The position numbers and the translations under genes are program-made. This document shows, in pieces, positions 11,441 to 61,005 of a stretch of DNA of 64,000 nt (position 1 is the first letter of the stretch; the number at the start of each line of letters is the position of its first letter). The notes beneath the pieces are model-generated. The model saw only the letters and a program-made list of their open reading frames with translations. It made no database searches and had not been told where the DNA came from. The DNA is taken from contig CM049322.1 in assembly GCA_026874595.1 (NCBI GenBank), positions 40,294,840-40,358,839 on the forward strand, written 5' to 3'. The stretch comes from Sipunculus nudus. Its lineage: Eukaryota > Annelida > Sipuncula > Golfingiida > Sipunculidae.

Positions 11441-12621
11441 ATATGTACATTGCTTGTGACAAAATAAAAAATGATGGATGAACAGTGCATGCAGTTCAAA
11501 TCATAAAAAAGCACACATAGACTTGAAACCACAGGCAATCATAAATTTGTCCTGAATTTATTATCTTTAACCAGTTTGGTTTGCCCTAGCGGCACTTTTG
11601 TCCTGTCATGGACGAATCTATTGGCAATCCATTGAGTGGCAGGGAAAGCCACATTAAGAACCGCAATCACTGTGTCGATATTTTTTTTAAAGATTTTTTT
11701 GGTGGAGGTAACCGCCTCCATATTTTAATGCTCACTTATCTTATTCTTAAACTAAGTATGTACATCTGCAGAGTTTCCATTTCGGTTTGGGACTACTTGA
11801 CAGGGCGGTAGCACTCGCTTCCTATCATTTTTATTTTGTATCCCGGTGTCTACCGCACCTGCGGGTCCCGGGTGTGCAATTATCCCCATTGCTGGGTCAT
11901 AACACCGAGGAACCCCCCAAAGACGCACTCGTATGTGTGTGATACACGGCTGTGGGGCACAGCCTTCCCATTAAGCCTGCAGAGCGCTTACCCTTGGTTG
12001 GGGCCGACCGTGAAAAACCTCACCTCCTCGGCTGAGATTCGAACCAACGATCTCCCGGCTTTGAGTCCTGCGCTCTACCCCTGAGCCACAGAAGTCGGTT
12101 CCACTGTATCGATAATTGAACAAATTGTATCCATAATCAAGGGCAGCAGCTCATTATTTTCGTATATAAATAAAAAGAAATTCGCTAATATATTCTGGTA
12201 TATTTGTTAAATCTGGGTGATTTTCAAAATATTTGCAAAATAAAATTCATAGGTCAAAAATTTGCACCAGTTATTTATTTTTTTACCAGGACATTTTTTT
12301 GTAACCCTCTCCGGAGCTGAATATCACTCGGGTTTCTCAATGTTTGTCCTCCATGTTTTTTCCGTACTGCTTGTTTTAGGCCTATATTGGACTTTAACCT
12401 AATATTGAAGCTAGACAGAGCATTCCGACTTTCCGTATTACTGCTGCTATAACTGTCCCGGGTAACTGGGAAAGGATTTTAAGACGGGGCGCGGTAAGGT
12501 CTGATCGCCTCGGCGCTTTCAAACATCTAGTTTTTAGGAGTATTTAATCAGGGCTCATGTACTGTAATTATGACTTGATCTTTGGCTTGAAACCTCCCCA
12601 TTCCCCTCAAATATACCCCCC
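11328..12621. other. palindrome 2 spacer
   Basis: It holds the end of the LTR (to 11440), AT-rich sequence, the SINE family 2 copy (11700-12108) and about 500 bp of sequence in which I see nothing. Confidence 0.6.
11700..12108 (-). mobile_element. tRNA-derived SINE, family 2, near full length
   Basis: The minus-strand head has A-box TGGCTCAGGGGTAGAGC and B-box GGTTCGAATCTC. The body holds 'gcgctctgcaggctta' and 'tgacccagcaatgggg', and the tail ends in 'ggaggcggttacct'. Other copies lie at 25005, 30800, 38410, 42420 and 52100. This copy sits in the spacer of the second palindrome. Confidence 0.75.
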
Positions 12622-19890: not shown

Positions 19891-20480
19891 TTAAGAGCTT
19901 GCAGGAAATAAACTCGATGTTGTTAACGGGTGAAACAACAGTAAGGTGGTGATAAGTATTGCAATTAAACAAATCCAAAAGAACAAACGATCAAACACCT
20001 CAGCGACACGCTTCCAATCTTTTGCATAATCAGGCTTCTTTCCAGAACGAGGCGCAGAATCATGTCCCGATGCACTGTGGGAAGGCGTGCCGGTGAGGGA
20101 ACAATTCGCAGAAGAGCTTCCACCACCGGATATGTTGCGTTTTCGCGTGAAGTCTGGTGATTGGCTCTCTACTGAGAGTATTTCCACCATATCTTCTTGG
20201 TCGCTTTCCACGCGGCCTGGGACCGGGGTGTATTTTATGCGGAATCGCACTTTATCTTTGTGGAGGTGGTTATGGTTCATATGGGGATCGGTCCGTGTGT
20301 TGGTTTCGGTCTTTGGTGTTACACAGTCGCACACACACATAACACGAGACAGGTATACGATGAACAGTTTTCTCGCCCACGGCGGGACTGGTCGGTCGCA
20401 GTTCTGATACAAGTTCAACACAAATACCGTGGCCACCATTGCCAGCGTGGTGATGGCCATGGTTGAAGTCAAATAAACAC
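19891..20480 (-). CDS. nAChR-like gene, coding exon 6 (M3, cytoplasmic loop, M4, stop)
   Basis: 590 nt, phase 1 in, ending TAA at 19893-19891. It encodes M3 (VYLTSTMAITTLAMVATVFV), a cytoplasmic loop of about 140 residues rich in His, Ser and Gly, the conserved pre-M4 amphipathic helix (DWKRVAEVFDRLFFWI) and M4 (CLIAILITTLLLF). The acceptor ctgttgcag|GTGTTT is strong. The loop carries a basic-Ser stretch TRKRNISGGG that could be a regulatory phosphosite; that is inference. Confidence 0.9.
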
Positions 20481-23400
20481 CTGCAACAGATAAATATAAT
20501 GTAATGACTGCTTGTATGGTACAATATGTCGATTTTCCTAATGATTCTCGTAACTCTCCGGTTAAATTGCCAGTTTCATATCGATAAATTCGTGGGCAAT
20601 GCTTTTTTTTTTATTTAAGACATCCTCTCCTGTTTACGCGAAGAGTGAAAATGAACATTCCTGTTGTGAAACCCCGAAATTCAATGAAAATTAATATTCT
20701 ACAAATATATTCGAATTTCAATTTTTAGAAAACAATTTTCTAAGCATTATAATTTAATAATTTACAACTGGCATATTGCCTACCAATTAAACCAGTCGAC
20801 TCAAAATACAAAAAAGGTCCTTATTGTGGAAATAATTCAAGCGGGGGGGGGGGGGGGGGGGCTGTGTTTAGCAGAATATCCCAGTAAAGGACGAAATCTT
20901 GGGTTGGGGTTTGTCAACTTTTAACAAGCTTGTATTATTGCGTTTACTTAATTCTTATTTGACATGCAAGGGAAAACCTCAAAGCGCCCGAAATAGACAG
21001 TTGTTCGTTAAAAAGAATTGCCGAAAAACACAGAAGTTTTCCAATTATTATCTTCAAATAAAGGAAGAAAAAAACTGTATTCTGCGTGGGAATTAGAATA
21101 CGACTATGGTCTGTTTGTAAGGCTCCCTAAATATCAATTAATATGCCTGCATGTAATTATTATATTTATGTCTTTGAATGCTATGATGCATTATTCTAAA
21201 AGGATGTTTGCTCTATAATTAGCATCGATCTTATCCATATAGATGAATAATCGTTATACTTACCAAGTAAAGGCACGTGATCAGATGTACGCGGAATGTT
21301 ATCCGCTACATTGAGCAGGAACAGGCGGAAAGATAAGAGAGCAGCCACGCCTATGTGCACTTTCTGTCCAGGCGTGCAGAAAAAAATTGAAAGTAGTACG
21401 GCTGAAGTCAGAATACCGGGAAGTATAACATTTAAAATATAGAATGTATGCTTCCGCTGTAGGTGGATTTTGAATTCTACGTTGGAAAATCGTTGATCTG
21501 GGCAACATAAGAAGGAGAATTCCCTCCGGATGACGTCGGTGTCGACGACGTGCCATTCCCCGTTCAGCTCAAACTTGACCATTGATATTTCCGTGCTTTC
21601 TGTGGTGATGTTCATCTTGCGGGTATAGTAGCTCCAGGCGCCAAATGTTAAGTCACACTTCTGTTCGTCAAATGGGTAGAACGTTATGTCAATGGGGCAC
21701 ATGGTCTTGAATACGCCTCCAGGCTCCCAGCGGAGAGAGCCATTTGGGTACAGCATGGCCTGGAACTGGCTGTAATCTCCCATGATGCCTTCGGCCCTGG
21801 CAATTGAATTACCCAGATTATCGGCCATGCAATTATCTAAATTATCGCCCACACTTGTTAAAGGCACTACTCATTTCTCCTATTTGATTCGTTAATAAAC
21901 TTACTATATGCAGAACCGGTTGTCTTGATACATGACATTTTATATTTTAACTTTTTTTAAGGTTTTATAATATTTTTATAAATTTCAATTGTCAATCATA
22001 TATACATATGTTATAAAGACTCAGACGTGACTTTCAAAGAAATTCCGTTATTTAAAAGCTTTCCCTTTTCAATGTATCAAATGGTCAATTTATTCAGCAA
22101 AACTATTACTTAAGCCCGGTGAGTTATTTATACTAGACAAATCGAATTAATTGTTATTTAAACATCAATGGAATATTTATTAAATAACTAGATAAATAGT
22201 TTGAGAATGATATATATAATCAACAAATTGTTTGTGTCTGTATGTGTGTGTATTGTTAATATTATTCAAGTGTACCCATTAATCACAGCGAATTCTGGTT
22301 TCCAAATGTGTCGCCCGTCCACCACAATCTCATGGAGTTTGAATATTTCCGTATCCCATGTCAGCCTCTCATCCTGCCATTCCTATAAGAAAAAAAATCT
22401 CAACAATAACATAGTAATTTCCCACAAAAAGCTTCCACTTGGGGTATTAAAGTATTAGCTGGAAAGATTCACCATAAAATACAGTATCGTGTACTACAGT
22501 GAACAATATAGCTAATGGGGCAATGGGACTTTCTAGTCAAGGGCAAACTTAACGTAATAGAAAATACAATGACGAATGCAATTCAGTTTTACATGTACTT
22601 CAAATTATAAAATTAATACTGGGCAATGGGGCCCCTCTAGTCCAGTAAAAATATGACGTAATAAAAACTATAAATAATTTAGTATTTAAAAGAAATATTG
22701 TCGAATAGTACGTCTTTACGAGGTTACTTGGTAACCTATACAATCCCAGTCTAGACTCCAGAGATCATAAATTACTCTATTTCATATAAGGAGAGGCATA
22801 TCTCTTCGACGCCATTCCTTGGGATGTATTTGATTCCACCCATGCCGTCTCTTTTAAGGTCAGGCTATACCATTATACAAGCAACCATGCTTGACGCAAC
22901 CAATTAACCTAAGAGGGAGTGCATGATGACTGGTTGGCGACAGTCCACATCATCGCGTAATTAAGACCACCTGGGTCACGTGATGTTGTCAACACCCAGC
23001 TTGCTATTTCCTCCTTTTAATGACTGCATGGGTGTTCCGTAAGGTAGCTCCTTTCTCTTGGGCCAAAACTAACTTATCATTAGCGCCTCGGTTTATGAAG
23101 TCAGCAAAGCAAAATTAATTTTCTATCACATATTTAAGAAAAATCTTATAGCTAGATCATTTTCTAGGGATTGGGCAGGAAATATACTTTTGTTATGATA
23201 GAGAAAAAAATTTCTTATGATAAGAATGTATGAAAAGGCAATTATTCCTAATGAAAAGATAATATATCTTGTCTAAATAAATCTCGATATATTTTCTTAA
23301 TCAAACGCATGCTGCCTATAAACGAAGAAAAATATTTTGTCAACAGACAATTTCTTCGGACAAGAATTATTTTCTTATAAAGTATATTAATTTTAGCTGT

Positions 23401-24929
23401 GACGGAGTAGGAAGACGAAAAGAGGGGGCCTATCCCCCCCCCCCCCCCCGTTATGAACACATTAAATCTTCTTCACATATTGTTAACTTACAAAACGGCT
23501 CACCCTGCGCCCTTTCATTTTTAGGTAACATGAAGAAAGTATAACCATTTCTTATATCCTAGTTAGTTGCTTATTCAATTATTCACAAACTGGTGCTTAT
23601 GCCTGTCTCTGGAAATATACGAGTACGGAATTTCATGAATATCGGCAGGCTTCAAATGAAGACCACTGCAAGACGAAACACGGACACAGGTAGATCATGC
23701 TGATAATTCCCGTGTAAGGTGAATAATTACCAGGGAGTAATTAATTATTAAATGAAACAGTCTGGTCTGCTCGTTTCCTGAATACGGAAAAAAAAACCCT
23801 TTCTTTGCTTATACTTAGCTGGCCTCTCTGAAACAATCTATACTAAATACTACCCTCCACAACTTATTTTGCAAAGGAGAGCGACTCGCATAAAAGAAAT
23901 AAGATGGAAAGCCTACTTTCCTTTGCAAATGACCCTTAGTCAATAAAAATAGTTATCTTTTTTTCTGTGGAAATAAAAACCACTGAATGGTTTCTGGAAA
24001 CTCTCTCTGCTTATCGTACATTTATCTCACCTCAAAAACAGAAACAGTTATTGGAAAATAAATGTAAACGTTAAACTATACTTACCAAAATAAGCATTCC
24101 TGTTGTCGTCAATACTTGATTTCTAACATTCTGAAAATGTCAATTAAAAATCAATATCATATTATATACAATAATGCGTAAACTGAGATACTTTATAGGC
24201 AGCTCCAATTTTTAGTGGGAAAACACGAGTGTTTTGTGCATTTTTGTATGTATACTGTATTCAGAATAATTTCTTGGTTCTGGACGTATCGGAACATGGG
24301 GTTCTGAATAGTGTATCAACATTTAACCTATACAACTTAAAGATATTATCAGCGGAGAACAATATAGAAGCATGTCCTGAAAATAACATTATTCTGTTGT
24401 TGTGAATAAGTAAAACGTAATTAAATATATGATATGTCATAATTATAGCATATTGTAACTATCTAGCACACTGATAGGACAAGATACAACGACGGCGTAA
24501 AGTACATACCAAGTCCTGAATTTGTAGCAGAGAGAAGCTGAGTTTGACGTTAACAGTCTCTGACGAGTGTATGACCGGCCGGGCTGACGGGTGGTAGTTC
24601 TTAAACAAATGGTCCAACAGTCTCTCCTCCTCTGACTTGGGGGTATTTCCCGCTCCACCTGAAATATGATACACTAGAACTGTAGTCTGAGCCTACAAAG
24701 ATACCTCCGCCAGTATTAACGGTTCCACCTGAAATATAATATACGAGAACTGTAGTCTTAGCCTACATCGATACCTCCGCCAGTATTTCCTGCCCCATCT
24801 GAAATATAATACACTAGAATTGAAGTCTGAGCCTACATCGGTACGTCCGCCAGTATTTCCTGCTCCACGTGAAATACATTACTCTAGAAATGTAGTCTGA
24901 GCCTACATCAATACCTCCATCAGGATCCT

Positions 24930-24994
<65 letters not shown>

Positions 24995-27900
24995 TATATT
25001 AAATTGTTGGTCAGGTAACCGCTTCCATTTTAATGCTCTCATAACTAATTATTAATCTAAGTATGCACATTTGCAGTTCCATTTCGGTTTGGGACTACGT
25101 GACAGGGCGGTAGCACTCACTTCCTACCGTATTATATTTTATATCTCGGTGTCACCGAAGTCCGGTGTCTACCGCACCTGCGGGTCCTGGGTGTGTAATC
25201 ATCCCCATTGCTGGGTCATAACACAGATGAACCCTCAAAAGACGCAATCGTTTGTGGGTGATACAATGCTGTGGCGCACAGTCTTCCCATTAAGCCTGCA
25301 GAGCGCTCACCCTTGATGGGAGATGTCCGTGAAAATCTCACCGCCTCGGATGAGATTTGAACTCACGACCTCCCAGCTTTTGGTCCTGTGCTCTACCCCA
25401 GAGCCACAGAAGCTGGTCATCCAAATAAAATCTTCCCGTGTTCTACACAGTATTACGATTCACCATCACGGATCACAGTTGAGCACTAAAGCAAAAACGG
25501 CTAAAACAAAGAAATTGCCAATTATCACAATGCAATAGAATCAATCGGATTATACATATATTGTTGTTCCAAAATTGGTTCAATTGCCAAGTAATCAGCC
25601 AATGGAAACATGTGCCAGAGGAGATATAATTAGAAAGAGTCTTAAAACGCAACTGGTATTGTGATACATGGCTGCCCTGGTACTAAGACTGCCTTAACAC
25701 TTAGAATAATGCTATATATATCGACTTTCTGTCTCAGAATTCAGCCATATGCTGATTGCGTCGTTATTTCCTATTAATTTTCTGTTCGTATGACTAAGTT
25801 GCATATATAATTATATGAATACATTCTTTCCATCCGGTATACAAGCAGCAAACAAAGCTACCAAACGAACAACAGAAGGCCATGAGTCCAACATTTTTTT
25901 CACTTCTAAGAATTCACACAAAGGGAAAATCTTTTGAATCAGTTCCTTAGATAGCTGGTGGACAAACCAACCAAAATGAAAGCGATGCCAAATCGAGTGA
26001 AAACACCACCGTTGCTCCCTTTGCTCAAGGTGAATACCTTGAACTATGGCATTGATTGGAACCTCTGACATTGAGTAAGTTCAAGTAAGTGCAAAGTATG
26101 CTTATCTTTAGTTTCGTATAAACAAAACTAACGTCACAATTCATCCTATTTTCAAACAAATGCGTTTACTTTTCAAATGTTCACATTCACCATAACCATA
26201 GAAAACCACTACATTTATAAACATCCATATGAAACAAAAATATCATTTCATTGCTGCACTATATGTAAAGACGGAAGTGACGATTTACGTTACATGTCGT
26301 AAATCAGGCAGTCATAAATGATAATATGTTTGACTTAATTAAAATACATTCGCCTGAATAAAACTAATTTTCGCGAGGTGATTGGATTGTTGTGAACAGG
26401 AGCTGATTTGGTTACAAACAAAATGGCGTTTCCGTTTTGGCGAAATCCATGTCAACATTTTAGTGATTGTTAGATATACGGGTACAGGGCTTTCAGGAAC
26501 GCGGGGGTAAGCGCCCCTGATGCTCGAAATGTCTTACGAACGCTCGGTTCTGATGGCCCAAGCGTCTGATTGGACGCACGAAATTCTGGCTTTAAGACCT
26601 TGTAACAGACAGTGACCATTACCGGCTGTCTCAAATGAACCTGTCGTGGTGTAAACACTGAGCTAATAACTGAGGCTTTCATTTCGCTGTAAGCTTATAT
26701 TCATATAAGAACATAAATACATACATTACGAAAAAGGTTTAATTTTTATATACCTTTCAAAAATGGACACATATCTCCCCCCCCCCCTTTGAAGCTCTTT
26801 ACTCAGATTGAACTCCTCATAATTTTGGCCTGAGTGTACCGGACTGTTCAAATTTTTTTCCTATTGAAAGCCACGTGCGTCTATTTCAGGATGAAAAAAA
26901 TTAAAATATTTTAAGACCTTCAAAACAGACTGTTGATCTGGATTTCCTTGTTAAGCTTGTTTTGGTTTTGTGTTATTAAGGCAGATTATTCCTGAAAGGA
27001 CTCTTTTTTCTATCCGTTTGCATTCACTGACTTATTATACTTTTGCCTTATTCAGGGCCAGATACACAGATGTATGTCGCAGGAACATGGATTTTCAGTG
27101 AGGGCCGAATATAACATCTCGTCCCTGAGCAGAACCAATAACCGTTCTCGGTTTAACCTGCTCTGAACTGGTTCAACAAATCAATTGAACAGGTACGCAA
27201 AAATGCCTTTGGTCATAACCAAACTTACAACCAAACTTTGGTCAGAACGCAAAACACGCCCATATTCAAAGTCAAGATGTTTGCTTTATTTATTGACTGA
27301 CCAAATTAAGTATTTCAGGGAGAATTCACGGAGCTGGTGTGCGAATCACAAAACTCGCCTGAAAGCATTATAATAATAATTCTTATTCCATTTTCATTTT
27401 CTTTTATTTTATCCTTAACCTGTTAATAGCTAAATGCCATCAATAATCTTATCAGTCGGTTAATGGAATTTAACACCTATTATTCTACATCTGAAGCCTC
27501 CGAGACACCTCCGGGTAGTTCGGGAAATGGTGCTTTTGCAGCAAAAAAAATGGCCATATGAGTAAACGGGAAATACGGGTGTGACGGAATTTTATAGCCT
27601 AAATCCAGATATAATATATTGAGAATACGTTAGAATTTCAAATATATGGATCTAAGCAATTTTATATACTCTAACGGTTCCTTAAATGATACGTAAAAAG
27701 GGCACATTAATCCTATAATATAAGGGATGGGTAAATGATTTATTAAGAGGGTAAAATAAATTATATATTTTACGGGAAGAGTAAATGATACATAATAAGG
27801 GTACGGTAAAAATGTATGATAATAGTACAGTAAATGATACATTACAAGGGTACGGTTAAAGATAAAATTTTAGAATGCAGTAAATAAAAAAACAGGCGAC

Positions 27901-30900
27901 AAGAGGTTAATACCACTGTCGTCCGCATGGCTAATTCCTCACGCATTTCTTCCAATGCATGATAAACCAATAAGGTTTAAATCATGATTAAATATATGAA
28001 CTGAACCATTCATGATTTAAATTTCTAAACGAAAAGTATAAAAGATAAATGTGGAGGCAGTCAGTTAATAAGTGGTTGGAGAGCATTGTTTAATACCTGG
28101 TATATATCATAATAAATGTATCCTATTTATGGAGCACACTTTGCGTGGTGCATGCATATTATTAATTGCCAACCTAAACGCACAATTTCGACCAAAATAA
28201 CGAGAAAGGTAATAAATAAAACATGTGAAACTTGTTGAAAAAAAAGACCATTTTTGCCAAACAGCTGCCGATATGTCTTTTGCCACCGGAAAGGCTAATC
28301 TCCTGAAGAGCAAAAATGTCCCAAATATAACTAACAAAAGCCAAGCTGAACATTCTAAACGTCAGAAACGTAACGAACTGTAAAGAGACCCTGTAATAAC
28401 ATCGGCGCCCCGAACCGCTCAGAGACGAACTCCAATTATACAAGCCTTCAGCGGGGTGCCGCTTTAGATAGTTTACGGCGCGAGGTTACACCTCCTATCT
28501 GCTGTGGTTATCATGTATTCGTAATGGAAATCTGTCTTCTCCGGAGATGCAGAAATTACATGCGTCCCCGTGTTGAATGTATACTGTTAGGCTTTGGATG
28601 ATTGATAGCACCTCCGTGGAATAAATTGGTTGAAGTTTCCAATTCTTTTAAGCTTGGGTTTGAAATACAGATTACTCAATTTATCCGTTAAAAATTTCCT
28701 CCAAGGCCATTCCTCGAACTCGCATGTCTTCCCTGTGATATGTTTTTTTCTGGGTTTTTTTATTTTTGATGTTTTTTTATTTTTGTTTGAACTTCTTTGA
28801 AGTTATCAACATATTTTGATGAAATTTTAATGATAGCTCGCCAATGATGCAAGGAAAAGTAGATTTTATTTTGGATTAATTTTAAAAAAATTTAAATCCG
28901 AACCAGGGTTTTTATTTAAGAAAAAAATGCTACATTTTTGACAATGCCGTATGGGGTAATGAGCTACCTCGCCGGAGGTCTGCGCTCTCTGAGTGCATTT
29001 CTATTTTTTTGTGTTGTTTTTTTTTTCTTTTTTTTTATTAGGGGGAGGGGGTTGTGAGGGGGTTGCCAAGATCGTTTCTATATATAAAGGCTCGGGTAAG
29101 AAGAGTGACCCAAAGAATTATTGACCAATATCTATCATTGGTCATATACCTAAGATATTGGAATCATTCGTCAAGCATAACTTAATTTCCTTTTTCTGTA
29201 AAAACAAAGTATTCTCGGATAAACAATTTGCTTATCTCTCAAATAGATCTGCGCCTCTCGCATGCACACAGTAATAGATGAATGTTTAACTAACATGAAC
29301 AATAATAAAATTACTGCAGCTTGCTTCATGGACATAAGAAAAGGATTTGACAGCCTAAATCATTCAATTTTATAAAGCTAACTAAATCAATATGGCGTCA
29401 TCGATACTGAACTTATTTGGTTTAAAAATTTTTTTGTCTAACAGAAGACAATTAGTATGTGTGAATGGAGAACTCTCTAAAGAGTGCGTTTTGAATAACG
29501 GGACCCCTCAAGGCACAATTCTAGGTCCGGTTTTATCCTTGTGTATAGTAATGACTTGCCTAAATATTTAAAAGAGAAATGCATGATAAATGCGGATGAC
29601 ATCTCAATATATACTTCCTCAGATTCACCCACTGAGGCGACTACTTGCCTTCAGAAACTTATTGACATCGCTCTTGAGTGGTTACATAATCACCGACTTT
29701 GTATAAACCCTGTAAAATCCACGGTGATTTTATTCGGCCAAAATCAGAAAAAAAACGATCTCCCGATTTAGAGATCATTATAAATGATATCACATTACAT
29801 CCTATCCAGAGTACGAAATTATTAGGTATAATCATTGACACTAATCTGACTTGGAGAGAGCATATTCAGCTTCTATGCGAAAATTAAAATCTAAATTAGG
29901 AATACTCTTTCGCCTCGGTAAGATACTGTCGACTACCAGCCTGAATTAAGTATATTTTGTCCTTTTTCAAAGTCACATAAATTACTGCATATCTGTTTGG
30001 GGCAATTGTTTTAAATCTTATTTAAATAGAGACCAAAAGCTTCAGAACAAAGCCGCACGCGTCGTTACAAAAATTTTTTTTACAATAACACTTCGTCTGC
30101 GTCATTAATTAAACAACTAGGTTGGATGACTGTGGAAGAAAGGTATCGGTATTTTTTGTGATCAATTGTATATAAATGTTTGTCTGAGGACGTACCTGAA
30201 TATTTTAAAACTGTTCTTAGGTTACAACGGATGCCATATGAAACACGGTCTTCTGACAGCCATAATTTGATTTTACCCAGGCCCAGGCGTGAACGTTTTA
30301 AATCTAGTTTTAGCTAAGCAGGTCCATATCTATGGAATCAGCTGCCTTTATCCTAAAAGTATGCCCCAGATCACGTTTTTTTTTAAGCGTTTATATAGAT
30401 GTTTGATGCGACGATAGCACAATTTTATATTATTCTAACTTGTATATTACCATAAATCTACCTTTCATCAATTTCATGAGATTGATATGTATTTCATTTT
30501 ATTTTGTTTTCAATATTTTCTATGTAACGACTTTGTTCCTTTACTGCATAACATCTTTTAATCGTTCGCGCTATATATTGAACTATGTTTTTAATATATA
30601 TAGCACTATGTCATGATAAATCTGTATCTGTATAATGTATATTTTATTCATTTTATATGTTCTAACTTTATCTAGGACCCTGTTGAAAACCAGCAAATGA
30701 GCTGAATATAGGCTATCCTGGTAAAAGATGTTTGAAATAAAACCATCTCAATTTTTAAATGCTATCTTAGAACATATTTGAATGGTATCCTTTCTAATCT
30801 AAGCTAAGCAAAATTCCATTTCGGTTCAGGACTGTGTGACAAGGCTGGCACACTCGCTTCCTCTCCTTATATATCTTTATATTTTATATCCGAAAAAAAC

Positions 30901-48547: not shown

Positions 48548-50875
48548 TAATTTTCCAGTTGCTTGCTTAAAAGAAGAGAGAAATCAACGCCAACATTTCA
48601 ATCAATCATTTTATTTAGATCACATATACAGATTGCTGCTAAATTTTTAGAGCTCTGACGAAGGCTACAGGGGTAGCTGAAATTTAGTACCAATCTGTAT
48701 ATATGAGATAAATAATATGATTGATTGAAATGATGGCGTTGATGTCTCTCTTCTTTTTATTTTCATTGAATATATATGTATATATATCGCGCATTTGCCA
48801 GGTAAATTTTAGGGCTTTAGAAATAAGAATATGATACCTTCTGCATTCGGAAATAGTTCCAAAGACTTGTGAATGTCATGGATAATGATTGAAATTCAGC
48901 GTCTCCTGTGACTTGGAGCAGGTAATTATCAAAGTCATTTTGTCTATCTAGACAGATAACAAAGGAACAAATATCAACCATAGACAATTGAGTTGAGAGG
49001 TTTTACCTCTGGTATTCATGAATTTTTTTAATTTGCTTGTCGTCTTCTTTTTATTCATTATTTTGCCTTGCTGTTTTTTTGCTTATTTAATCCCTGTTTC
49101 GATTTTGTCTTCGTTTCTGTTTAAAAAAATGAATATGGCACGATTATGTCAGTCTCTTAAACTGTCCCAAGTGAAACTCAACTTTTACCTGCCTTTCACC
49201 TTAAGGTATGTAAAAATACAAACTAAAAGCAAAGTTTGCCCAGGTTAAGATAGATCAGGCTTTGTGTCTTAAATTTTTTGTTTGTTTATAAAATACATTA
49301 TGAATTAGGATAATTTTCATGCATTTGAAAATTATTGAATCAAGAAAAAATTAGTACCGAAATTATGAAAAACATGAATCCAAGAGACACACAGACATAC
49401 CGTAAGACTCGGACGTTTCAGAATCTGTAAACTCATCCCAGCCCTCGTTTTGGCCACGTCTGGACGTAAAGATAAACTATCGCGGCGCCTTCAGTTGTCT
49501 CAAACCTTCCAGCCAGACACATTTTAGTCTAATAATAATTTGATAAAAGTGTCCTTGTTTTTAGAAACATACAAACCATTCCGTGCAATTCTCAATAAAA
49601 AAAGAATGAAAATGAGTATTTGCGATTGCAGATTACAGGAGTGATAGGATGATCTTTATAATAATATTCATGAGTGAAGTTAATTTGTTTAGCCTATACT
49701 ATGATTTGAATGTTCGCAAATTTATTTACTGACGTGAAAATAATACATTTGATAACACTGAAATTATTGTTGGTTCTTACCAGAAAAGAATGATTTTGTT
49801 TGATCAAGTTGATCATGACTAGTGCGGATATTTGTGGTAAGAACTTCGGGATGGGGTGCCAGCTCGCCCCAAAGTACCGCGAACCCGCAACGGTGTTAAA
49901 ATGGTACGAACGCATCGTCCTAACTATTACACTACCATGCTCCATGTTAACAGACCACTTGTCCATATATTTAAATGAATTGCCCTTCGGCCTTTTTACA
50001 GATCGCCCAGTCTGAAAGAAATTCCCGTCCACGCCACCCCGAGATACACAGATGTTTCGTAGGGGCTTAGCTTTTCGGAATCTGTAAACCCATCCCGCTG
50101 CTCATTTGGCCTCGTCTGGACGGCCAGATGAACATGGATTACCAAAAACCCCATCTCGACGCTTTCGTCTGTCTCGAAACATCAGGTAATGACGTATAAA
50201 TTGGAAATTTCCGCTTGGTGGATTGTAATGTTCAAGTGAAAGGATGGCGGTTTTCTCTCAAACCGAAAGAGGCAATAATCTGGTCTGGTGGATTTGTCGG
50301 TGGGAATGAAACCTTCCGATTACTGCCCCGTGCTGGCTGAATTGCCCACTTCCTCCCTGAATACTTATAGTTTACCACAGTCGAGCTCCCATAGACGTTC
50401 TTTTTATCTTTCCCTTGAGCTGCTATTTGCCAAACACAGGAAAACCATTTACAGCCGTTGAACCCCATTAACATACTTTACGTTTAAAAACTTGCAACTA
50501 CTTGCGACACGCCAGCACCAGAACAATCTTCGTCGGCAGTTGAGCAAACTTATAAAAACGTTAAAGGGGCGACATTTTTTTCTGGTGAACCTTTTAATTG
50601 TTGGAAAAACAAAGGATTTTTTTTTTATCATAAACCAAGAACGGTTGCAGACATCTTTTGAAAGAGTTAAGTCAAACTTATATATATAGCGGCAGTGGCA
50701 AAATGGCTATATTACTTCAATAACCTTGAGACATTCTTAGTTAAACAAGTTTAGAGCTGAAAAAAATGAACTTCTTAAGAAGTAAAATAAATCATTAACT
50801 ATTGATGTGAAAGTTTTACTCACCAGTGGGAATAAAGATAAACAAAATGGGCACCAGCAACAGGAAAAGGTCCAT
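19891..50875 (-). CDS. nAChR-like Cys-loop ligand-gated ion channel subunit (six coding exons, whole gene span)
   Basis: Predicted pentameric neurotransmitter-gated channel subunit of the plasma membrane. I join six coding exons: 50875-50824, 24658-24510, 24130-24086, 22382-22276, 21796-21264 and 20480-19891. All junctions are GT-AG and all phases match, giving 1,476 nt and 491 aa. Order of parts: signal peptide (1-17), extracellular domain with the 13-residue Cys-loop (C151-C165), vicinal cysteines C215-C216, M1 (~236-258), M2 (~262-283), M3 (~300-320), a long cytoplasmic loop, the amphipathic DWKRVAEVFDRLFFWI segment and M4 (~462-479). N-glycosylation sequons lie at N136 and N180. Length and order are normal for nAChR subunits. 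Odd points: the loop A Tyr, loop D Trp and loop C Tyr positions are replaced, M2 has R at 12' and Q at -1', and intron 1 is 26 kb. The CC pair resembles alpha subunits, but an acetylcholine ligand is not assured. Confidence 0.9.
21264..21796 (-). CDS. nAChR-like gene, coding exon 5 (Cys-loop, loops B and C, M1, M2)
   Basis: 533 nt. It holds the Cys-loop CPIDITFYPFDEQKC (C151-C165), loop B FGAWSYY (W172), loop C FSFLCCPDQRF (C215-C216), M1 from about 236 and M2 starting GQKVHIGVAALLSF. The donor CTTG|gtaagt is strong. I place the acceptor at gccag|GGCCG because it restores phase 2 and gives the join FAVING-AEGIMGDYSQ. The pyrimidine tract there is weak, so this edge is the least certain in the gene. 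An open frame continues past it to about 21870 and then meets a TGA. Confidence 0.88.
22276..22382 (-). CDS. nAChR-like gene, coding exon 4 (loop A region)
   Basis: 107 nt, phase 0 in and phase 2 out (the vertebrate counterpart is about 110 nt). It encodes EWQDERLTWDTEIFKLHEIV and then VDGRHIWKPEFAVING, matching the family pattern WxDxxLxW...IWxPDxxLYN. A strong pyrimidine tract and ttatag precede GAATGG; the donor is AATGG|gtacac. The loop A tyrosine position (residue 116) is Ile. Confidence 0.88.
22383..24085 (-). other. intron 3 of the nAChR-like gene
   Basis: 1.7 kb of AT-rich sequence. It contains a partial tandem duplication of about 110 bp (around 22510-22670, both copies with 'gggcaatgggg' and 'acgtaata') and a C-run at 23436. 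I see nothing coding. Confidence 0.6.
24086..24130 (-). CDS. nAChR-like gene, coding exon 3 (45 nt, loop D)
   Basis: Exactly 45 nt, phase 0 on both sides, encoding NVRNQVLTTTGMLIL. This is the conserved 45-nt exon of nAChR genes; the family form is roughly DxxNQVLTTNxWLxx. Acceptor ttttcag|AATG, donor TTTTG|gtaagt. The loop D tryptophan expected at residue 79 is methionine here. Confidence 0.88.
24510..24658 (-). CDS. nAChR-like gene, coding exon 2 (N-terminal helix and first strands)
   Basis: 149 nt, phase 1 in and phase 0 out. It encodes the N-terminal helix and beta strands, with SEEERLLDHLFKNYHPSARP followed by VNVKLSFSLLQIQDL, a close match to the start of mature nAChR subunits (xxERLLxxLFxxYxxxxRPV, then VxxxLxLxQIxDL). 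The acceptor is atttcag|GTGG and the donor is GACTTG|gtatgt. The size is close to exon 2 of vertebrate nAChR genes. The acceptor and the first exon bases belong to a 70-bp tandem repeat that continues upstream to about 24930. Confidence 0.9.
24651..24930 (-). repeat. 70-bp tandem repeat copying the exon 2 splice acceptor (about four units)
   Basis: The motif 'ccacctgaaat' and variants recur at 24655, 24725, 24795 and 24865, a constant 70-bp step. Read on the minus strand, each unit carries a 3' splice site, the first bases of exon 2 and then GGCGGAGgtat, a possible donor. Units 24705-24728 and 24775-24798 are complete 24-nt microexon-like pieces in the right phase without stops. The unit ending at 24868 has lost its AG. 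Confidence 0.8.
24933..24999 (+). repeat. (AT)n microsatellite between the 70-bp repeat and a SINE
   Basis: About 65 bp of AT with one C interruption, in intron 1 just upstream of the exon 2 repeat. Confidence 0.95.
25005..25416 (-). mobile_element. tRNA-derived SINE, family 2, near full length
   Basis: Head with A-box TGGCTCTGGGGTAGAGC and B-box GAGTTCAAATCTC on the minus strand, body and tail as in 11700-12108. It lies in intron 1 just upstream of exon 2 and follows an (AT)n run. Confidence 0.75.
25420..29059. other. intron 1, no clear feature
   Basis: AT-rich. There is a C-run near 26776 and a stretch around 27660-27870 with repeated 'ggtaaatgat/ acataataaggg' words of about 30 bp. A minus-strand frame at 25811-26071 has no recognised homology. 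Confidence 0.4.
29060..30765 (+). pseudogene. degenerate non-LTR retrotransposon (LINE, jockey-like) 3' part
   Basis: A broken reverse transcriptase can be read across frames: PISIIGHIPKILESF, FMDIRKGFDSLNHSIL (motif A with the Asp), GTPQGTILGPVLS (motif B), then INADDISIYTSSDS (motif C, with the usual YADD Tyr as Asn). C-terminal thumb-like sequence (LGIIIDTNLTWREHI) follows. Many stops and frameshifts are present, so it is dead. The 3' end lies near 'aataaaaccatctcaat' at about 30750. Confidence 0.8.
30800..31055 (-). mobile_element. tRNA-derived SINE, family 2, degraded
   Basis: The tail 'ccatttcggttcaggac', body 'agcatgtagagcgctcac' and a decayed head around 31000-31045 match family 2. 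It lies directly after the LINE relic. Confidence 0.6.
31284..31385. repeat. 15-bp perfect inverted repeat with 72-bp spacer
   Basis: 'atcgggataacatcg' (31284-31298) is mirrored by 'cgatgttatcccgat' (31371-31385). It could be a small MITE core or a hairpin. Confidence 0.6.
31386..32888. other. intron 1, no clear feature
   Basis: A C-run at about 31600 and a G-run at 32580 are the only notable marks. Confidence 0.4.
32897..34217. mobile_element. non-autonomous hAT-like DNA transposon
   Basis: The flanks carry an exact 8-bp (or 9-bp) direct repeat: atacacac at 32889-32896 and 34218-34225. Ends are imperfect inverted repeats (TAGAGCCCGGCGCGGG left; right end reversed AAGAGACCTGCGTGGG). C-rich subterminal repeats of the CCGCCCCGC kind occur at 32927-33140 and 34083-34190. 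The 8-bp duplication and subterminal arrays fit the hAT superfamily. No transposase is visible; the middle holds AT-rich DNA and a short tandem duplication around 33870-33975. Confidence 0.7.
34690..34975 (+). repeat. second copy of the CCTCCGCC-type dispersed repeat
   Basis: It shares 'tagtcacttatgcacgag', 'aataagtgaatg' and the end motif 'ggcggagg' with 16285-16550. Confidence 0.45.
35532..35570 (+). repeat. (AT)n microsatellite
   Basis: About 39 bp of pure AT. Confidence 0.95.
36540..36615 (-). mobile_element. possible SINE family 2 tail fragment
   Basis: 'gacgtaaccgcctcatattt' with 'atctacgtata' resembles the inverted family 2 tail, but too little is left to be sure. Confidence 0.3.
38410..38680 (+). 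mobile_element. tRNA-derived SINE, family 2, 5'-truncated, plus strand
   Basis: It contains 'aaagccgggag', 'gtatgacccagcaatgagg', 'gaattctgcag' and ends 'ggaggcggttaact', all in family 2 order on the plus strand. Confidence 0.6.
38681..42419. other. intron 1, no clear feature
   Basis: I see no coding region, SINE head or terminal repeats here. Confidence 0.4.
42420..42690 (-). mobile_element. tRNA-derived SINE, family 2, degraded
   Basis: The tail-side 'acatctacagagttcaattt', body 'cagagcgctta' and head remnant 'gtgctctatccctggtta' match family 2 in minus orientation. The B-box is eroded. Confidence 0.55.
43052..43825 (+). mobile_element. solo LTR, diverged copy of the 10.6 kb LTR
   Basis: It begins TGTTACAGG and ends CCGTAACA. 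It shares long matches with 10624-11440, including 'gttaacaaaaaaaacactga' and 'attcattcccctagacattt'. It has a TATATAAAG box about 43303. No internal retroelement genes flank it, and I see no clear target duplication. Confidence 0.65.
43826..48489. other. intron 1, mostly featureless outside the 45.4 kb element
   Basis: AT-rich DNA flanking the pearl-like element at 45420-45775. The open frames here do not resemble proteins. Confidence 0.4.
45420..45775 (+). mobile_element. pearl/helentron-like non-autonomous element with (CGACGA)n
   Basis: It begins near 'ggatatatggacaaaaggag', contains 'gaaggtcaaggtcacagg', a short gacgac/gccgac tract at about 45703-45722 and a 3' hairpin-like end 'tatgtctcc...gggagatata'. 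This arrangement recurs in mollusc interspersed repeats; family naming is by resemblance only. Confidence 0.4.
48490..48545 (+). repeat. (AT)n microsatellite beside the hammerhead-like hairpin
   Basis: About 55 bp of AT. Confidence 0.95.
48571..48755 (+). mobile_element. inverted-repeat hairpin element with hammerhead-like core
   Basis: Two ~65-bp arms (48571-48635 and 48691-48755) are inverted copies, starting 'aagaagagagaaatcaacgc' and ending in its mirror 'gcgttgatgtctctcttctt'. The loop contains the hammerhead-like core. (AT)n runs flank both sides. Confidence 0.7.
48636..48690 (+). ncRNA. hammerhead ribozyme-like motif
   Basis: Core order as in hammerhead ribozymes: CTGACGA (48655-48661), a stem ggctac/gtagct with loop aggg (48663-48678), then GAAA (48679-48682). 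The outer strands gctaaattt and aaatttagt pair as a third helix. One extra A lies between CTGACGA and the stem, and the remaining stem is very short. Activity and exact type are therefore uncertain. Confidence 0.45.
49380..50200. repeat. pair of diverged direct repeats ~650 bp apart
   Basis: 49380-49530 and 50035-50190 share 'tcagaatctgtaaac/tcggaatctgtaaac', 'cgtctggacg' and 'gtctcaaac/gtctcgaaac' in the same order. They lie at the 3' side of exon 1. Confidence 0.5.
50824..50875 (-). CDS. nAChR-like gene, coding exon 1 (signal peptide)
   Basis: The exon encodes MDLFLLLVPILFIFIPT plus the first base of a Gly codon. This is a typical short hydrophobic secretion signal. The ATG at 50875-50873 is chosen because it is the first in frame after TAA and TGA stops in the upstream exon sequence. 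The exon ends ACTG|gtgagt, a strong donor in phase 1, which matches the phase-1 acceptor of exon 2 some 26 kb away. The link rests on phase, signal-peptide character and strand; an extra small exon inside the 26 kb intron cannot be excluded. Confidence 0.75.
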
Positions 50876-57100: not shown

Positions 57101-58299
57101 AATGCTCTGAGTGGCACTCCAGTGTTAAGGATACCTATAATATTACATGATATTCCATTCAATTACATTTGTTCAAATTACATTAAATTTAGAACAGTGT
57201 TTTCATAAATTCACAGCAATACATCTTATTTAAATAGAAAAAATGATAATATTTATTTATTCATTTATAATGTAAAAACGATGAGAAATATTCAAGAATT
57301 CTTTCAGAGTAGAAATGATCAACATACCCAATATATATATATATATATACACACACATACACAAATATATATATATATTTCTATGATTTTTGCGTTTGCA
57401 TTTCTCAGTATGTATACAAAAAACAACAAAACTAAATATTGTTCGTATACAGTTTAGAATATCAATATTTTCTAGCTCAATGTGCTCCATATATAAATCG
57501 AATTCACTGCACATATAGCATAATGAGACAAGACTGTATTCGGGTATCCATGTAGAACGTTGAGCAGACAGGAGAAATGGTTTTTACGTCCCGTGGGAGA
57601 TTTGGTCGCCATACCATCTCTACCCCTTTATGAATATTTAACGACCTCACGGCGCGGAATTTGGTTTCTATGCTCATTTTGTAGCACTAAACCAAAGTCT
57701 GTTCTATTTTTGTCTCCTTGAATAATTTCGTCAGGGAACAAATAATCTTGCCTTTCGTGGAAAGAACCGTACTGTGGGAAGCTTAGTTGGATAATCGCTC
57801 GCTTTGTTGCTTTTTTATATGTAAGCATCTTTAAGGTGTTAGGGCAACATCCGATGAACAGAAGTTGTAGTCAATCTGGATGCTATTTTTTTTAGTTTAT
57901 CCCGGTGGAGGGCCTGAACCATTCACTGATATTCCTGACCGCCATTGTTCTAGCGTGCACAGCTTATGTGTGATCCAACCATGGAATACATGAATCATGA
58001 TCAGGATCATGTACGAGTTTTAAATTTAGCCCAAAATTTTTAAGGATTTTCCCGAAGGACAATAAAAATTGGGAGGGTTTGTTTGACATGTCAATAAATT
58101 TTAAATCCTGGTCCAAATCAGATAAAAGCCGCCGTTAATTTTATCACAGCACTCAACAAAAACGCACGTACAATACGAATACACGTTAATTTAAACTGAA
58201 TAAACCCTTTGGCATGGAGGAGACAGGGTTATGTAAATAAACAACATAGATCCTTTCTTAAATGAAGGCTTAAGCTAGTATGGCACCCACGTGAGGCAC

Positions 58300-59875: not shown

Positions 59876-61005
59876 ATCTCTGCCACATAAACATGATTGT
59901 AGGTGGCACCACCTGTTATTTGAACTTGAAACTATCCAAGATATATACACATGCAAAATTTCAAGTGGAAAAGTCAAACCACTGCAGAGATATGAGTGAT
60001 TTTATCCCACAGCAGACAAACAGATGGACGCTGTGCAAACATGGTTGCAGGTGGCGCCACCTTTTGTTGTGTATGTTATAAAGCTATCCCAGGGCTACAT
60101 TTGTGTAAAATTTTTTTCCGGATCGGTCAAACGGTTCCCGAGATATGAGCTTGGATGTCTGCAGCGTTAACATGAATGTAGGTGGCGCCACCTGTCATAA
60201 AATCAAGGAAGCTATCTAGGATGTATACGCATGCCGAATTTTAGGTGAATTAGTCAAACCATTGCAGAGATATGAGTGATTTTAACCCCAGGCAGATGAA
60301 CAAATGGACACTGTGCAAACATGGTTGCAGGTGGCGCCATCTTTTGTTGTGTATGTTATAAAGCTATCCCAGGGCTACATTTGTGTAAAATTTTTTTCCG
60401 GATCGGTCAAACGGTTCCCGAGATATATGGGTTTATGTGTGGAGCGTCAACGTGAATGTAGGTGGCGCCACCTGTCATAAAATCAAGAAAGCTATCTAGG
60501 ATGTATATGTATGCCGATTTTTAGGTGAATTAGTCAAACCACTGCAGAGATATGAGTGATTTTAACCCCAGGCAGATGAACAAATGGACACCGTGCAAAC
60601 ATGGTTGCAGGTGGCGCCACCTTTTGTTGTGTATGTTATAAAGCTATCCCAGGGCTACATTTGTGTAAAAATTTTTTCCGGATCGGTCAAACGGTTCCCG
60701 AGATATATGGGTTTATGTGTGGAGCGTTAACGTGAATGTAGGTGGCGCCACCTGTCATAAAATTGAGAAAGCTATCTAGGATGTATATGCATGCCAAATT
60801 TTAGGTGAATTAGTCAAACCACTGCAGAGATATGAGTGATTTTAACCCCAGGCAGATGAACAGATGGACACTGTGCAAACATGGTTGCAGGTGGCGCCAC
60901 CTTTTGTTGTGTATGTTATAAAGCTATCCCAGGGCTACATTTGTGTAAAAAAATTTTCCGGATCGGTCAAACGGTTCCCGAGATATATGGGTTTATGTGT
61001 GTAAA
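59876..61005 (+). repeat. composite 280-bp tandem array with the palindrome AGGTGGCGCCACCT
   Basis: Two half-units alternate, each centred on an AGGTGGCGCCACCT-type palindrome at about 60049, 60180, 60329, 60459, 60609, 60739 and 60889. Steps are about 131, 149, 130, 150, 130 and 150 bp. The later units are most alike, and the first is the most diverged. Confidence 0.85.

Follow-up and report, generated by a model that had tools for sequence, protein, structure and literature searches.

A nicotinic-receptor-like gene on the minus strand of the Sipunculus nudus genome carries, at the junction of its intron 1 with exon 2, a 70-bp tandem repeat in which the splice acceptor has been copied together with the start of the exon. 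The question raised by this locus is whether such copying supplies the receptor with optional exons or merely litters the intron with spare splice sites. The original prediction favoured a minisatellite generating in-phase N-terminal linker exons, or decoy splice sites, in an ion channel. Here, I show of what parts the array is composed, in what order they stand and how far they have diverged, within a 64,000-nt stretch of DNA (the window, to which positions refer unless a genomic scaffold is named).

The gene belongs to the nicotinic acetylcholine (Cys-loop) receptors, given that the ligand-binding domain PF02931 falls on exons 2-3 and on exon 5 and the transmembrane domain PF02932 on exon 6, all above the Pfam cut-off; for exons 2-3, alpha-7 subunits are among the best PDB matches, the alignment starting at query residue 11. 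Exon 2 (24510-24658), identified by its Pfam and PDB matches, encodes the start of the ligand-binding domain and is followed on the minus strand by exon 3 (24086-24130, 45 nt), exon 4 (22276-22382), exon 5 (21264-21796, with an uncertain acceptor, 21853 likewise giving an open frame) and the last exon, exon 6 (19894-20537, the coding part without the stop codon, its acceptor also uncertain). A stop lies upstream in the frame of exon 2. Exon 1 is a candidate at 50824-50875 (minus strand), encoding the signal peptide MDLFLLLVPILFIFIPT plus a final G and ending at a GTGAGT donor in phase 1; if true, intron 1 measures 26,165 nt, and all five introns of the model are at least 379 nt long. The joined exons give an open reading of more than 500 codons, with the qualification that junctions were picked for openness and that exon 1 is a candidate. 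It comes from a hand-made scan, which returned two candidates over the 39 kb that precede it on the gene strand; other strands, about 200 kb in total, gave none at thresholds of 2.0 for hydrophobicity and 4 for the donor. Against the candidate, the scan also picks transmembrane exons, and on six paralogue loci it found no exon 1.

The receptor family is large in this genome: a piece of exon 5 has 125 exon-level matches, which are not gene counts (150 scored of 156 candidates). One of the matched loci, L029, has an internal stop (a single TAA), as do some others, and many matches are closely clustered (C1:98.75-98.97 Mb), as expected for an expanded family with some pseudogenes. Across 19 exon-2 loci (18 besides the present one), the acceptor with the highest score puts exon 2 in phase 1 in 18 cases and in phase 2 in the remaining case; all are predicted sites, two of them with scores below zero, so that single assignments may be wrong. 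Taken as a set, the other predicted loci lend independent support to phase 1 for exon 2. From the predicted acceptor to the start of similarity the same 19 loci span anything from none to 38 codons, a range wide enough to suggest that extra residues there are probably tolerated. A further AG lies 15 nt upstream of exon 2, in the TAG at 24673 (minus strand; ttctag, the element's end, see below); used as an acceptor, it would lengthen exon 2 in frame and stop-free by VYHIS, at a low score of -2.88.

The array itself was recovered by TRF at 24643-24918 (period 70 bp, 3.9 copies, 83% matches), and the 70-nt register agrees with it: as first described, four units, free of insertions and deletions, run across the junction of intron 1 with exon 2 on the gene strand. 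Unit 1 (24635-24704) takes in the final 46 nt of intron 1 and the beginning of the real exon 2, its homology to the others stopping after 16 exon nucleotides. Unit 2 (24705-24774) has the acceptor TTTCAG, a 24-nt candidate exon at 24728-24705 and the donor GAG/GTATCT; unit 3 (24775-24844) has TTTCAG, a 24-nt candidate at 24798-24775 and GAG/GTATCG. Both candidates are exactly 24 nt, lie between TTTCAG and GTAT, are in phase 1 on either side and contain no stop, all as predicted, and the residues foreseen, GGTVNTGG and DGAGNTGG respectively, are right provided that the preceding exon contributes one G in phase 1. Unit 4 (24845-24914) has indeed lost its AG, reading TTTCAC.

Other parts of that description need trimming. 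It gave every unit an acceptor and a gtat donor, which is true of units 2 and 3; unit 1 lacks an internal gtat, since there the real exon 2 continues, and unit 4, besides its lost acceptor, has the weak donor GAC/GTACCG. The copied exon start is present in the units, yet it accounts for just 16 nt of each 24-mer, the last 8 nt being the tail of a mobile element. Likewise, the signal peptide after which the residues would be inserted lies in an exon 1 that is a candidate, 26 kb upstream.

The mobile-element tail was recognised by searching the whole genome with a 436-bp region, which hit itself and 23 other places; a second copy of the whole array was not found by this search in the 1.43-Gb genome. 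In all 23 places the similarity is to the stretch around TGGAGGTATnnATGTAGGCTCAGACTACA; it extends no further than 7 nt into the copied exon start and in no case touches exon 2 proper. Of these, 19 were fetched, and most have a common upstream body, ending near TTTCTAGTT. With nhmmer, a draft consensus matches every one of the 19, and 16 of them from before position 60, a circular result in that these copies went into the draft. A SINE is expected to be dispersed over unrelated places in copies with a common 3' end, and the old element is so called here for its size, dispersion and common 3' end; its head being undefined, it could be another kind of short dispersed repeat.

In the window, the draft consensus matches the minus strand of the locus in two pieces, a 5' part at 25515-25419 (consensus 29-128) and a 3' tail at 24932-24884 (consensus 121-169, 91.8% identity), which are parted by a younger SINE and flank it with consensus positions 121-128 occurring twice. 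The tail holds the donor-like site GGAGGTAT and a branch-point-like CTCAG. The consensus also matches 44-bp stretches in the units, about 32 bp of each being intronic; in other words, the old element's 3' tail makes up about 32 of a unit's 46 intronic bases. GAGGT stands at the donor position in 14 of the 19 fetched copies (counted by eye, with a query that contained it), and judging from these copies the donor-like GGAG/GTAT is a property of the old element. The element was not found within 1.5 kb on each side of the 18 other exon-2 loci (blastn, E<=0.05), nor did a literature search with its tail as a text string return any paper. Elsewhere in the window, 57905-58031 (plus strand) is another weak match to it (nhmmer E 7.9e-6).

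The younger insertion (24933-25418, minus strand) is a tRNA-derived SINE with a (TA)n stretch, lying inside the old element and distinguished by a tRNA-like head, many copies and a probable target duplication of 8 bp, ATTTGGAT and ATTAGGAT, alike at 7 of 8 positions. The head scores 32.7 bits against the Rfam tRNA model (cut-off 29), whereas an ARAGORN tRNA scan found nothing. A genome search, in which 40 of 6,366 first-look candidates were scored, gave 41 matches including the window itself; 22 of the 40 non-self matches start at query position 84, which is window position 25417, and the other 18 between query positions 68 and 90, so that the edge of the younger SINE agrees with the split of the old element. 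A sister copy, 82% identical, lies at 11696-12094 (minus strand). The window also contains, at 29386-29768 (plus strand), the open stretches NGTPQGTILGPVLS and INADDISIYTSS, which by eye look like fragments of a LINE-type reverse transcriptase.

How long ago the block was copied, and whether its splice sites have been kept on purpose, may be judged from the divergence of the units. Pairwise, they differ at 9-13 of 62 sites, about 17%, in a star-like pattern with 18 of 20 variable sites confined to a single unit, which points to one old burst followed by independent change. Units 2-4 depart from the unit consensus at 5-7 of 70 sites; in the tail, unit 4 is nearest the element consensus (2 differences in 35), the other units having 3 to 5. 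Intronic and exonic parts have diverged alike, identity in units 2, 3 and 4 being 40, 37 and 38 of 46 for the former and 18, 19 and 21 of 24 for the latter. One of 12 AG/GT positions has changed, against 1.09 expected, and in the 24-mers of units 2 and 3 three changed codons alter the amino acid relative to the consensus while one does not. In neutral simulations (20,000 runs for each rate), AG, GT and openness survive in at least two of the three upstream units in 84, 67 and 46% of runs at 6, 10 and 15% change per unit. Arbitrary breakpoints are also lenient: 275 of 825 pairs give a multiple of three, and 216 of these are open as well. The acceptor, for its part, is copied of necessity, because the duplicated block spans the intron-exon boundary. 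Thus the 24-mers show no sign of selection, over a number of sites small enough for a weak signal to be missed; the kept AG/GT, frame and openness fit neutrality.

Could the copied sites work? Scored with generic matrices, which like the branch motif are unfitted to this genome, the acceptor of unit 2 reaches 5.27, that of the real exon 2 4.13 and that of unit 3 3.28. The donors score 0.85 in unit 2, 0.29 in unit 3, 1.46 in exon 2 and 4.26 in exon 3; among 3,526 GTs on the strand, 5.9% equal or exceed the unit 2 donor and 7.5% the unit 3 donor. Exon-2 donors at 11 of the 18 other loci score 2.53 to 6.73, seven loci being left out of this comparison because no GT that could be taken as donor terminated their similarity match. 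By these models the spare acceptors look credible and the 24-nt donors weak, the gene's own exon-2 donor not being strong either. The best branch-like motif, CTCAG or CTAAG, lies in the element tail; its A is base 17 of the 46-nt stretch, which leaves 29 nt to the end. A unit 2 microexon, or unit 3 joined to unit 2, needs introns of 46 nt, where the donor would be about 17 nt from the predicted branch point; unit 3 joined to exon 2 has a 116-nt intron and about 87 nt. In human constructs, 46-50 nt from donor to branch point are needed, distances below 47 nt cut splicing by about 90% or more and those above 60 nt carry low risk (PMC11291888); some human introns of 37-65 nt do get spliced (PMC4463651). 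Under these limits, which may not be this animal's, the sole sterically plausible microexon route would be from unit 3 to exon 2. When exon 2 is extended to the acceptor of unit 2 or 3 with the 24-nt donor left unused, the reading ends in a stop.

Along these lines, the array is probably explained by the tail of an old mobile element caught in a tandem duplication across the exon boundary, with the copied acceptors left over as decoys that mostly go unused. The old SINE-like element would have landed about 15 nt upstream of exon 2, its tail thereby coming to sit at the expected branch point of intron 1, a role that it may have taken over; the younger SINE would have split it upstream of the tail. 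After the old insertion, a tandem duplication, probably a single burst, would have copied to four units a 70-bp block in which the element tail is followed by the acceptor of exon 2 and its first 16 nt. The extent of the block follows from its ends: unit 4 is continuous with the old element upstream and unit 1 with exon 2, hence the block starts inside the tail and ends at exon nucleotide 16. The donor-like GGAG/GTAT would be in the block as part of the tail, and the acceptor through the boundary spanned. The body of exon 2 is purine-rich (GAGGAGGAGAGA), presumably an enhancer-like sequence, and the 24-mers have none such; the real exon 2 would accordingly be defined mainly from its own acceptor, the one nearest to this body and to the exon-2 donor. 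Acceptors of units 2 and 3 would at most serve as low-level decoys, whose use leads to frameshifted transcripts, and would drift neutrally; the acceptor of unit 4 has already been lost. The decoy sites named in the original prediction are thus kept as a plausible reading.

Some observations stand against this explanation. The unit 2 acceptor outscores the real one and that of unit 3 comes near it, the sequence forbidding the use of neither; the lack of any indel in the whole array makes it look slightly better preserved than might be expected; and published duplications of acceptors do alter the RNA (potato RdRp, PMC4974935; BRCA1, PMC11839443). In the BRCA1 case, the duplication leads to an mRNA with duplicated sequence and a premature stop (PMC11839443), and the upstream acceptor is presumably the one used there.

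A rival reading is that unit 3 is a genuine optional microexon, its 24 nt joined to exon 2 over the 116-nt intron with unit 2 skipped, which would put DGAGNTGG between the signal peptide and the first receptor helix. This is unlikely, even though the unit is open and phase 1 on either side at 24 nt, its donor-to-branch distance of about 87 nt exceeds the 60-nt low-risk limit (PMC11291888), the N-terminal stretch varies so widely over the 19 loci with predicted acceptors, and a like geometry gave a new intron in potato RdRp (PMC4974935). Its donor, at 0.29, is below the range of the 11 other loci (although the gene's own exon-2 donor reaches just 1.46), the 24-mer bears no signal of selection, and the stronger acceptor of unit 2 would have to be skipped. 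It is a shade more doubtful that 24798-24775 acts as an optional, phase-symmetric linker microexon, with a donor from a mobile-element tail, included by neurons or other cells at the receptor N terminus.

Comparably doubtful is the proposal that units 2 and 3 are active decoys, lengthening exon 2 by 70 or 140 nt and breaking its frame, so that transcripts decay and receptor output is lowered, be it as poison-type control or as mild genetic load. Unit 2 is the top-scoring acceptor of the array and has the best branch-like motif, CTAAG (judged by a generic consensus), and the extended readings run into stops; however, an open reading of more than 500 codons means that decoy use is not dominant if the receptor is needed.

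Far less credible is a dual-specific or recursive site, in which the AG/GT at the start of units 1 and 2 would serve as acceptor and donor in one. Read as donors, CAG/GTGGAG and CAG/GTGGAA score 2.21 and 1.18, above the 24-nt donors, and dual-specific AGGT sites are enriched in human tandem-repeat genes (PMC10809524); yet unit 3 starts with AT, the AG of unit 4 is gone, the intron from unit 2 to unit 1 would be 70 nt, and at the end of an intron a ratchet step saves nothing. Recursive splicing is rejected on these grounds, namely the broken AGGT of units 3 and 4, the 70-nt intron and the intron-end position. An active minisatellite making new in-phase exons, polymorphic in unit number, is just as hard to credit and is rejected too: a tandem 70-bp array does adjoin the exon, but its units, each an element tail plus acceptor, are far from homogenised (about 17% apart, variable sites nearly all private, without signs of recent turnover), its unit length of 70 nt is not divisible by three and two of the three microexon routes need 46-nt introns, so that this part of the original prediction falls. 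A more uniform repeat, of four tandem units of about 280 bp with 92% match, occupies 59890-61001 of the window and, by its sequence, is a more likely site of unit-number variation than the 70-bp array.

Among published systems, the closest cases for duplicated acceptors and for repeats are the reports on potato RdRp and on UBC. As in potato RdRp (PMC4974935), the duplication took in a block straddling the boundary of intron 1 with exon 2, and acceptor, branch site and tract are inherited with a donor-like site just downstream of the copied exon piece. There, however, a single duplication made use of a GTAAG donor of the host exon, both copies are used and the new intron has 106 RNA-seq reads, whereas here four units carry an element-tail donor without G at +5, and the 24-nt candidate is known from sequence alone. 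The contribution of a splice-site-like motif to an intron by a mobile element recalls the exonization of transposed elements such as Alu; unlike in those cases, the element would give only 8 of the 24 nt of a putative exon whose acceptor is the host's own. The array also resembles the dual-specific AGGT sites of UBC (PMC10809524), where a tandem repeat multiplies an AGGT-bearing boundary, but it is intronic, has a unit that is not a multiple of three and keeps AGGT in two of its four units. Finally, a large receptor family in one genome is a feature shared with the nicotinic receptor expansion of molluscs (PMC6896357); the present gene is intron-rich, and an array of splice sites is not among the features described in the accessible part of that report.

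To sum up, the array appears as a clear frozen intermediate of a proposed route to new introns and exons, namely a boundary-spanning duplication with a donor from a mobile element. If even one of its spare sites is used, it would offer a natural test of the choice among three nearly equal acceptors 70 nt apart, and of how short an intron this lineage can splice; should all of them stay unused, it would illustrate the ease with which seemingly in-phase microexons arise by copying and chance.
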